Shown here: piece after piece, positions 11,215 through 14,762 of the stretch
Position numbering within the stretch: the first letter of the stretch is position 1
Layout of the letters: each line of letters begins with the position of its first letter
NCBI RefSeq assembly: GCF_004634385.1
Contig: NZ_CP037895.1
Span: forward strand, 1,525,245-1,589,244
From: Thermaerobacter sp. FW80
Lineage (GTDB): Bacteria > Bacillota > Sulfobacillia > Thermaerobacterales > Thermaerobacteraceae
Length of the DNA: 64,000 nucleotides
Reading direction: 5' to 3'
Program-made: the position numbers and the translations under genes
The notes under the pieces: generated by a model
Seen by the model: only the letters and a program-made list of their open reading frames with translations
What the model was told of the DNA's origin: nothing
Databases searched by the model: none

Positions 11215-12141
11215 CTACTCCAACAGTTCCTGGGCGGGCACGACCGCGCCGTCGTAGTTCTCTTCGATGTACTCCTTGACCTCGGGACCCACCAGGACCT
11301 CCGCCAGCGCCTTGAGCTCCGGCCGGTCCACGTCCTCCGGCCGCACCACCAGCACGTTGGCGAAGGGCGAGTCGGCGTCCTCGATGAACAGCGGCTCGGG
11401 GTTCTTCATCGCCCCCGCCTTCTTCGCCTCCAGCACGTAGTTCGTGTTGATGGCCGCCAGATCCACGTCGGCCAGGGTGCGCGGGATCAGCTCGGCCGCC
11501 ACCTCGCGGATCTCCAGGTTCTTCGGGTTCTCCACGATGTCCCGCACCGTGGCGGTGTAGTCCGCGCCCTCCTCGAGCTTGATCAGACCGGCCGACTGCA
11601 GGAGCAGCAGCGCCCGCCCGCCGTTGGTCGGGTCGTTGGGGATGGCCACCGTGGCGCCGTCCCGCAGCTGGCCGAGATCGCTGATCTTGTCGGAGTAGAG
11701 CCCCATGGGCTCGATGTGCACCTTGGCCAGCGGCGTCAGCTTTGTCCCGTGGTCCGCGTTGAACTGGTCCAGGTAGGGGATGTGCTGGAAGTAGTTGGCG
11801 TCCAGCTCGCCGTCCACCAGGGCCGGGTTGATCTTGGTGTAGTCGCTGAACTCGATGACCTCCAGCTTGATGCCCTGCTTCTCCAGGGCCGGCGCCGCCA
11901 CGTCGCGGAGGATCTCGGCGTGGGGGACGGCGGTGGCGCCGACCTTCAAGGTGACGGATCCCTGCGTGCCCGCGGACCCGTTGCCGCCGGCCGCACCCTC
12001 ATCGGCCGCAGCGCCGGACGAACCGGCCGACGGGCCGCCTCCGCAGCCGGCCGCCACGGCCGCCACCAGCAAGACCGTCAACGACATCGCGATCCGCCGG
12101 ATCCAGCGCCGGCGCGGGGGGAGAGGGGAGCCTGCACGCAT
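11215..12141 (-). CDS. metQ: Methionine ABC transporter substrate-binding lipoprotein
   Basis: The extracellular methionine-binding lipoprotein that feeds MetN-MetI. The 308-residue protein has a lipoprotein signal (RRWIRRIAMSLTVLLVAAVAAGC, lipidated Cys at about 33), a Gly/Ser/Ala-rich spacer, then the NlpA fold: VTLKVGATAVPHAEILRDVA, FSDYTKINPALVDGELDANYFQH, IEPMGLYSDKI, IPNDPTNGGRALLLLQSAGLI, and INTNYVLEAK. The start at 12141 follows AAGGAGGT with 9 bases of spacing. It is the third gene of metN-metI-metQ, but a 26-bp perfect hairpin lies between metI and metQ. That hairpin probably sets the relative amounts of the transcript parts. Upstream control is by the SAM riboswitch at 14325-14637. 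Confidence 0.95.
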   Translation of the reverse strand: MRAGSPLPPRRRWIRRIAMSLTVLLVAAVAAGCGGGPSAGSSGAAADEGAAGGNGSAGTQGSVTLKVGATAVPHAEILRDVAAPALEKQGIKLEVIEFSDYTKINPALVDGELDANYFQHIPYLDQFNADHGTKLTPLAKVHIEPMGLYSDKISDLGQLRDGATVAIPNDPTNGGRALLLLQSAGLIKLEEGADYTATVRDIVENPKNLEIREVAAELIPRTLADVDLAAINTNYVLEAKKAGAMKNPEPLFIEDADSPFANVLVVRPEDVDRPELKALAEVLVGPEVKEYIEENYDGAVVPAQELLE

Positions 12142-12376
12142 CGGGCTGCGACCTCCTTCCCGTCCACCGCTCGGCCGCGTTCGCCATCGGGCGGTGGACG
12201 TGGCTGTTCTCACCCATCGCGTCCCCATCACCCCCTCGCGGACGAACCGGCCGCTCCCGCGGACCATCCCCCATGCCCGCTTGCCGCGCCGACCCGGTGC
12301 CCAAGACCCGGCGTGCTCCATGGGCCGGGACGCCAAGCCGGATCGGGCGGCGGTCCCTGGCCGTCCCGAGCCGCGG

Positions 12377-12442: not shown

Positions 12443-13183
12443 TCACCGGTGGTTGAGCCGCCGGGCCAGCGACTCGCCAGCCCACTGGACCAGCTGCACC
12501 AGCGCCACCAGGAGCACCACGCAGGCCAGCAACACCCCGGCCTCCCACCGCTGGTAGCCCATGCGGAAGGCCAGGTCGCCCAGGCCGCCGCCCCCGACGG
12601 CGCCCGCCACCGCGGAGAACTCGATGAGGCCCACGGTGGCGATGGTCACCCCCAGCACCACGGCGGGCAGCGCCTCGGGCAGCAGCACCTTGGTCACCAC
12701 CTGCCAGGGGGTCGCCCCCATGGCGACCGCCGCGTCGATGGTGCCGCGGTCCACCTCCCTGAGCGCGGTCTCCACGACCCGGGCGACCAGGGGCGTGGCG
12801 GCCACCGCCATGGGCGGCACCGCGGCCGCGGTCCCCAGGGACGTGCCCACCAGCAGGCGGGTGAAGGGCGCCAGGGCGATGAGCAGGATGATGAAGGGCA
12901 CCGACCGACCCGTGTTGACCACGAAGGCCAGGAGCGCCCGCAGCGGCGGGAAGGCGGCGATGTGCCCCCGGTCCATCACCACCAGGAGGGTGCCGATGGG
13001 CACCCCGGCCAGGGTCGCGAAGAGGATGGCGAGGCCCACCATGTACAGGGTCTGGCCGGTGGCCTCCACGATGTCGGGTCCGTACTCCGTCAGGGCCGCG
13101 AGCAGTTCGGCCAGTGGTGCGGGGACGAACCCCGCCGCCGTCAGGGTCGAACCGCCCGGCAGCATCGCGCCGGTTCCTCCCAC
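12443..13183 (-). CDS. metI: Methionine ABC transporter permease
   Basis: Integral-membrane component of the MetNIQ importer, 246 residues. Hydrophobic segments include [49 protein letters not shown], and the C-terminal [20 protein letters not shown]. The permease-ATPase coupling loop is clear: [28 protein letters not shown], the EAA-like motif of the family, and [25 protein letters not shown] is diagnostic of MetI. The GTG at 13183 follows GGGAGGTGA with 6 bases of spacing and lies 6 bases after metN. Length is slightly above the usual 215-225 because of an N-terminal extension. Confidence 0.95.
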
Positions 13184-13189
13184 GCACCG

Positions 13190-14098
13190 TCACCTCCCGA
13201 CACGCCATGGGCCGGCGACGCCGGGCGCCGGGAGCCGTCCCGAGGCGGCCGGCAGCGGATGGGCGGCGTCGGGGAGCGGTTGGGCGAGGGGAGCACCCTG
13301 CCCGGCGGTCGCGATCCTCGCCGCGGCGTCGGATCCCGCGCCGTCGCCCGCCGCGGCCAGCAGGCGCCGGGTCGCCTCGGCCTGGGGTCGGCCGAACACC
13401 GCGTCCACGGGTCCGCACTCGGCGATGCGACCGGCGTCCATCACCGCCACCCGCTGGCAGGCCGCCCGCACCAGCTCCAGCTGGTGGGTGATCAGCAGCA
13501 CCGTGATCCCCAGCTCCCGGTGGACCCGCTGGAGCAGCTCCAGCACCGTCCGGCTGGTGGCGGCGTCCAGGGCCGAGGTGGGCTCGTCGCAGAGCAACAG
13601 CTCCGGCTCCGTGGCCAGGGCGCGGGCGATGGCCACCCGCTGCTTCTGCCCGCCGCTGAGCTGGGCGGGGTAGGCGCTCGCCTTGTCGGCCAGCCCGACC
13701 CAATCCAGCAGCTCCTCGACCCGGTGCCGGATGCGGTCCCGCGGGACGCCGGCGATCTCGAGGGGCAGCGCCACGTTGCCCGCCGCCGTGCGGGACCAGA
13801 GCAGGTGGAAGTGCTGGAAGACCAGGCCGATGCGCCGGCGCTGCCGCCGCAGGGCAGCGCCCCGGAGCCGCGTGAGCTCGACGCCGCCGAGGCGGATGGA
13901 CCCCGTCGTCGGGCGCTCGAGCAGGGTGATGCACCGCACCAGGGTGCTCTTGCCCGCCCCCGACGGACCGACGACGCCGAAGAACTCGCCCCGCCGAACC
14001 ACGAGGTCGACCCCGTCCAGGGCCGTGGTGGTCCCGCGGCGGCCGCGGAAGACCTTCACCAGGTTGCGAACCTCCAGCATCGGTTCCGGCATCCGCAT
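13190..14098 (-). CDS. metN: Methionine ABC transporter ATP-binding protein
   Basis: The ATPase of the MetNIQ importer. It shows Walker [10 protein letters not shown] near residue 45, the Q-loop in [28 protein letters not shown] (typical of MetN), the signature [15 protein letters not shown], Walker [13 protein letters not shown] and the switch His in LITHQLELV. MetN normally ends in an ACT-like NIL domain that senses methionine; here the C-terminal part after about residue 235 is only an Ala/Pro-rich tail, so allosteric trans-inhibition by methionine is probably absent. Start codons at 14101, 14098 and 14092 are all possible; a G-rich ribosome site precedes them. First gene of the operon, about 225 bases after the riboswitch terminator. 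Confidence 0.93.
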
Positions 14099-14324
14099 CA
14101 CCCCCGTCGCCCGCGCCGGATCCGGGTTCGGCGGGGGCCCGCGCCCTCCACCGACCCGGCGGCCTCCGCAGCCGGTCGCCTCGGTCCGTGGCGACGCAGT
14201 GCCCGTTCAGGCGGGCCGGTTCGTCCACCAGGCGACCTCTCCGCACCCGGCCGCCTCGGTCCGCGGCGTCGCAGCGGGCAGCCCTGGTCCGCAACCGGGC
14301 GGTCCCGGTCCGGCGACGGGCAAC

Positions 14325-14361
14325 AAAAAGCCATCCTTTCCGAGAGACGCAGAAAGGATGG
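14325..14361 (-). terminator. SAM-riboswitch intrinsic terminator
   Basis: On the minus strand, CCATCCTTT and AAAGGATGG form a 9-bp stem followed by CTTTTTG. The loop contains TCTCTC, which can pair with the GAGAGA at the 3' side of the aptamer P1 helix. That gives the usual S-box choice between antiterminator and terminator. Confidence 0.92.
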
Positions 14362-14380
14362 CCAAAGGGTGCCATCCCTT

Positions 14381-14637
14381 CTTATCTCTCAGAACGGCGT
14401 CCCGGCACCAGGACGCGGTTCTGCGGGAGTTGGCACCACCCGGCGACCGCATCGGGCGCGGCCCCGCGGTCGCGCCCCCGCGACCAGCGGGCATCGCGGC
14501 GGCCCGACCCGAGACCGGACGCCTCCGCGGCCACCGCCGCCGGCGGGCCGAGCCGGAACGGCCGATGGGGCCGCGGTGCGGCCGCACGGAGGTTGCCGTG
14601 GCTTCATTGGGCCCGTCCCTCCGCCACTCTGGATAAG
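14381..14637 (-). promoter_or_regulatory. SAM-I (S-box) riboswitch aptamer with an oversize P3 arm
   Basis: Reading the minus strand from 14637, the class I SAM aptamer is unmistakable. CTTATCCAGAG opens P1, followed by GGCGGAGGGACGGGCCC and ATGAAGCCACGGCAACC. After a long interruption come GGTGCCAACTCCCGCAG, a P4 hairpin and GAGAGATAAG closing P1. The stretch between GGCAACC (14591-14597) and GGTGCCAA (14430-14437) is 153 bases, against roughly 10 to 30 in ordinary S-boxes, so the aptamer spans 257 bases rather than about 110. The inserted part can form its own stem (CGCGGCCCC with GGGGCCGCG). When SAM is bound, transcription should stop at 14325-14361 and metNIQ should be off. Confidence 0.93.
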
Positions 14638-14732
14638 AAGAGATGCGGCGTATTCGGTTGTTCGTGGGCGCCGCCGGGACCGGGCGTCGGGCCGCGGTCC
14701 GGCGGTCGAGCCGGCTCGCGTGTACGCTGCCG

Positions 14733-14762
14733 ATTATGCCGCCGGTTGTGCCCGCCTGTCAA
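14733..14762 (-). promoter_or_regulatory. Sigma-A-type promoter of metNIQ
   Basis: On the minus strand TTGACA (14757-14762) and CATAAT (14733-14738) are separated by 18 bases, close to consensus. Transcription should begin near 14726, about 90 bases before the riboswitch aptamer and just downstream of the asnB stop. Confidence 0.75.

Follow-up and report, generated by a model that had tools for sequence, protein, structure and literature searches.

A SAM-I riboswitch upstream of metNIQ in Thermaerobacter with a 154-nucleotide, fast-drifting P3 arm

The minus strand of the 64,000-nucleotide stretch of Thermaerobacter sp. FW80 DNA analyzed here (the window, throughout) carries at 14640-14378 what is, judged from its sequence, a genuine SAM-I (S-box) riboswitch with a hugely extended P3, its antiterminator/terminator following at 14390-14325. 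We consider it probable, at roughly 0.8, that the element is a standard OFF switch of metNIQ operating by transcription termination and that the arm is a passively carried expansion of the P3 loop. The arm resembles baggage that the RNA tolerates, as riboswitches are known to do, and resembles neither an adaptation to heat nor an additional sensor. The locus illustrates the extent to which a SAM-I P3 loop can be lengthened, with drift in the added part resembling that of spacer DNA and almost no change in the remainder of the switch. The promoter boxes and the parts of the switch are listed below in the order of transcription, R2 being a covariance model in which P3 inserts may be long.

14757..14762, minus strand: -35 box TTGACA, from sequence, present in three congeners too
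14733..14738, minus strand: -10 box CATAAT, from sequence, with an 18-nt spacer from the -35 box, also present in three congeners
14632..14640, minus strand: P1 5′ strand CUUCUUAUC, pairing perfectly with 14378-14386, R2 parse
14598..14630, minus strand: K-turn, P2 and GGGCCC loop, with the invariant SAM-I columns present
14592..14597, minus strand: GGCAAC, 5′ side of the P3 base and SAM pocket, from sequence and R2
14438..14591, minus strand: P3 arm extension, 154 nt, 85% GC, from orthologue comparison and folding
14426..14437, minus strand: GGUGCCAACUCC, 3′ side of the P3 base and J3/4, from sequence and R2
14390..14424, minus strand: P4, from alignments, R2 parse and folding
14378..14386, minus strand: P1 3′ strand GAUAAGAAG, from sequence and R2
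14371..14390, minus strand: antiterminator 5′ arm, overlapping the P1 3′ strand and pairing with 14342-14362 in the free minimum-energy fold of the window and the orthologues
14325..14363, minus strand: intrinsic terminator hairpin and U run, from sequence, folding once P1 is imposed

The invariant core (AGAG, GGAGGGA, GGCCC, UGA, GGCAACC, GGUGCCAA, UCC, GAGAU) is intact in the window, invariance having been judged from 28 and 24 aligned SAM-I RNAs and the window compared with them by reading. P1, P2, the P3 base and P4 are all pairable, with no broken pair in the full-length R2 parse, and folding predicts the antiterminator and terminator to be mutually exclusive. The earlier note on this DNA had reported all conserved S-box elements together with a terminator, and each could indeed be located on the minus strand. 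Its count of 153 bases from GGCAACC (ending at 14591) to GGTGCCAA (starting at 14437) is exact, and the 10-30 it gave as usual agrees with the 13-30 nt found in most members of the class, a few having 43-62. P4 (14390-14424) is itself longer than its counterparts in the SAM-I RNAs with which it was compared, and nearly constant within the genus.

A default RF00162 scan of the window returned no match at the cut-off of 44.4 bits, and a permissive scan gave 39.8 bits, below that gathering threshold, with the 3′ half of the RNA misaligned into arm sequence. R1, a model of 28 SAM-I RNAs of normal length from the class, misparsed the window as Rfam had done and was set aside. R2, built from 24 SAM-I RNAs (15 normal and 9 long-P3) with the metN group of the window excluded, matched the full length at 14639-14379 with 49.4 bits (E 2.8e-12 over the window) and every modeled pair formed, a score that stands after a composition penalty of 35.6 bits; R2 found no second credible match over the 64 kb. 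The near-identical switch of orthologue G001, with an arm of 81 nt, reaches 65.4 bits on RF00162, above the cut-off. Since this shorter-armed orthologue passes and the long-insert model parses the window fully, the shortfall on Rfam comes from the insert alone, and the sub-threshold score is a limit of the test, not evidence against SAM-I membership. Scoring with large inserts allowed, which the earlier note had proposed as a check, gives a complete parse, and the locus exposes a blind spot of Rfam, whereby a clear SAM-I RNA is dropped because of an insert.

Besides the expression platform, the element has metN and metI downstream, as expected for the context of a SAM-I riboswitch; the gene upstream, also on the minus strand, encodes an asparagine synthase. 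The downstream features are as follows.

14102..14324, minus strand: spacer from terminator to metN, ~190 nt longer than in congeners
13190..14101, minus strand: metN, methionine ABC transporter ATPase; PF00005, best NCBIfam match TIGR02314 MetN at 308 bits (cut-off 499.7)
12443..13183, minus strand: metI, methionine ABC transporter permease; PF00528, best NCBIfam match NF008049 MetI at 193 bits (cut-off 212)
11215..12336, minus strand: metQ-like substrate-binding lipoprotein open reading frame, with a lipobox-like signal read by eye and an uncertain start

From the terminator to ATGCTGGAG there are 238 nt in the window as compared to 41-51 nt in the congeners, and the spacer harbors a 36-nt direct repeat (14164-14199 and 14239-14274, 89% identical); like the arm, it is a GC-rich insertion that grows fast, so that the leader holds two. 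MetN has 303 aa, and its match to TIGR02314 ends after the first 241 of the model's 343 positions, so that the protein may be without the C-terminal regulatory domain, in which case feedback would fall to the riboswitch.

Evidence on the evolution of the arm comes from the same-locus switches of three congeners and one sister genus, five genomes with the window. Aptamer and platform together span 152 nt, of which 148 are identical between the window and each congener (at least 97% identity within the genus); the sister genus agrees with the window at 139/151. The arm measures 154 nt in the window, 155, 82, and 81 nt in the congeners, and 103 nt in the sister genus, all five genomes retaining at least 81 nt. 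Its identity between window and congeners is 0.61-0.76 over aligned columns, with indels of ~73 nt and gaps filling half of the arm columns in two of the comparisons, and even these identities are upper limits, as MAFFT aligns GC-rich sequence by chance. As yardsticks against the same congeners, four-fold degenerate sites of metN give 0.65-0.74 and the upstream 150 nt give 0.63-0.70. Outside its base, the arm diverges as fast as synonymous and intergenic sites, with much larger indels. Conservation in the arm is limited to its ends, CUCCG(C/U) on the 5′ side and CGGGU on the 3′ side, in all five genomes. Read across the orthologues, the folds continue the stem above GGCAAC/GGUGCC for ~10 pairs, and within this arm base of the window G12-C has become C12-G through changes on both strands, and C6-G has been replaced by G7-C in a shifted register that leaves U6 bulged. 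The compensatory change is suggestive support for arm-base pairing, drawn from four independent sequences and not a statistic. Covariation across relatives, which had been proposed earlier as a check on the whole arm, is thus confined to its lowest ~10 bp, which persist and show one compensatory change in the window species, with essentially none in the upper arm.

As an OFF switch that carries its arm passively, the element would work in the canonical manner. High SAM would keep P1 closed; with P1 closed, its 3′ strand would be unavailable to the antiterminator, and the terminator (14363-14325) would form. Without SAM, 14371-14390 would pair with 14342-14362 and transcription would continue. 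Here we infer SAM binding and termination, as well as neutrality of the upper arm. The 154-nt arm would be an expanded, solvent-facing P3 loop, of which selection would ask only that its base close P3 and that the remainder fold on itself and spare the core, so that length and sequence could drift fast. In SAM-I crystal structures, the distal end of P3 faces away from the core, and this would explain why P3 length is tolerated. By computation, the isolated window arm forms 59 pairs; the free minimum-energy fold of the transcript keeps 55 of them, and imposing P1-P3 keeps all 59, so that the upper arm is the same in both predicted switch states.

The window arm, at 85% GC, self-folds at -112 kcal/mol, as compared to an average of -102 for its dinucleotide shuffles, 11 of 500 of which are equally good (z -2.2), and its folding is mostly owed to composition. 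The earlier description of the arm as highly GC-rich and able to fold on itself therefore stands, but shuffled sequence folds nearly as well. A fold better than chance was considered as a sign of selection and rejected, z being only -2.2 to -0.5 in most orthologues and -2.9 in G002; still, that the window and G002 arms fold slightly better than their shuffles counts against a purely passive arm, and weak selection for arm length may remain compatible with the five genomes. The predicted upper-arm shapes differ, with two-armed junctions in the window and G002 and simpler hairpins in G001 and G003. In four of the five genomes, G004 being the exception, the natural arm perturbs the predicted core less than ~90% of shuffled arms do, a difference that also speaks against a passive arm but is not significant.

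How unusual such an arm is can be gauged from 129 RF00162 matches in 61 relatives, whose median span is 114 nt and whose longest outside the window locus is 163 nt, as compared to 262 nt in the window. A pattern search of 154 genomes of the class for inserts of 101-161 nt was positive in 3, in each case at the window's locus. A stricter pattern run over 84,980 species genomes found 13 loci, comprising one in the sister genus, one (L068) of another kind, and 11 true long-P3 SAM-I RNAs from Chloroflexota and Actinomycetota (62.6-80.2 bits), a number that is an undercount because the pattern is exact. In several lineages, sequence has been inserted or has expanded within P3, and as a natural insertion site P3 is useful to riboswitch engineering. 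At seven Chloroflexota loci (L057, L060, L061, L065, L066, L067, and L069), the two sides of the arm are complementary arrays of short repeats that make long imperfect hairpins, and the predicted folds of most of these arms are much more stable than those of their shuffles, with z as low as -9.0. The L066 arm (L066:3279-3422) is a dispersed repeat in its own genome, placing such repeats inside a riboswitch aptamer. At L068:5339-5538, the 3′ half of the aptamer (GGTGCCAATTCCGGCAG...GGAAGATG) occurs twice in tandem after a normal P3; it is a partly duplicated aptamer, not a long P3, whose two 3′-half copies could compete for the single 5′ half. A degenerate SAM-I-like match at L045:315-414 (minus strand; 37.9 bits), without the usual P2 region sequence, is possibly a variant aptamer or a decayed copy. 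Literature searches, covering open-access papers, turned up no account of a Thermaerobacter SAM-I riboswitch with a long P3.

The conserved ends of the arm could also serve as strands of a competing set of pairs. In the ligand-free RNA, CCUCCGC could pair with GCGGAGG of P2, and GCGGGUGG with CCAACUCCCGC of J3/4, separating P2 and P3, so that switching would involve the whole aptamer instead of P1 alone; P2 and P3 would then dissolve together with P1, and the variable upper arm would be a passive hinge. We regard both this mode of switching and its consequence for the arm as unlikely. The CCUCCGC/GCGGAGG pairing dominates the free ensemble in all of G001, G003, G002, and G004 (mean probability 0.80-1.00) and reaches at most 0.11 in all 53 other SAM-I RNAs folded alike, and its strands are the sole conserved portions of the arm. 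However, the four cases are all one clade and count once, P3 needs the same residues, and in the window itself the pairing is weak (0.25 at 37 °C and 0.04 at 60 °C), where the changes near the base (C6 to U6, and G to C at -6) suit P3 pairing better. Furthermore, imposing P1 leaves the folding energy of the window RNA at -194.7, the same as for its free fold, and the gaps between folds are 0-10 kcal/mol out of 140-200 under an energy model that ignores the K-turn, the pseudoknot, and the ligand.

Other explanations would give the upper arm a history or a function of its own. Given that the P3 arm of L066 has ~90 further matches in its own genome, P3 can accept mobile elements, and there is a slim chance that the window arm is likewise an inserted palindromic repeat of the kind seen in Chloroflexota SAM-I RNAs, ancient decayed insertions included; the arm is, however, single copy in its genome. 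As a dispersed repeat it was rejected, the best other match being 74% over ~70 nt inside a long open frame and a reversed-arm control doing nearly as well. The earlier note had offered stabilization of the SAM pocket at high temperature, which appeals because Thermaerobacter is thermophilic (the optimum of T. marianensis is 75 °C; PMC3035304) and the arm is very GC-rich. We judge it very improbable: P3 is of normal length in the genome's three further SAM-I RNAs (loops of 27, 26, and 17 nt), sister species have the same switch with half the arm, the GC content of the arm tracks that of a 72% GC genome, and long P3 arms also occur in bacteria that show no indication of being thermophilic, a bog actinomycete among them. 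Nor is the P3 base predicted to form more readily at 60 °C in the long-arm group (0.84, 0.83, 0.32, 0.30, and 0.01) than in the same-genome paralogues L001 and L002 (0.96 and 0.94), the third paralogue being at 0.14. The other function suggested in that note, a second regulatory module, here a second sensor or protein-binding module, has next to no chance of being right; the size of the arm would permit one, and the two longest arms are predicted to form three-way junctions, but the orthologue arms share no sequence or structure outside the base, there is no tandem aptamer, an Rfam scan of the arm found no family above chance, and 55 of the 59 arm pairs are kept in both states.

The arm, read as passively carried on an ordinary metNIQ switch, can finally be set against known systems. 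With SAM-I riboswitches (RF00162), the element shares the four helices, the K-turn, the invariant core, a terminator-type platform, and a methionine-transport target gene; it differs in a P3 loop of 154 nt versus ~13-30, in a P4 longer than in the relatives compared, and in a sub-gathering score that stems from the insert. The spermidine riboswitches, which are SAM-I variants (PMC10853860), have the same four-helix architecture, yet their SAM-contacting positions are changed in J1/2 and the P3 internal loop and they control polyamine genes, whereas the window has intact invariant SAM-I columns and a metNIQ operon; a change of ligand of that type was considered and rejected, the core residues being unaltered. 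The text on variable insertions in Barrick and Breaker (2007; PMC2258182) does not mention the P3 case found here, and it describes low covariance-model scores for insertions at unusual positions, to which the window is alike. Such insertions are long, nonconserved peripheral stem-loops that leave the core undisturbed. The Thermaerobacter arm is likewise unconserved in sequence and length, self-folding, and without disturbance to the core, its insulation beating shuffles only at the ~10% level, and, going by that text, its best reading is as a variable insertion of this class.
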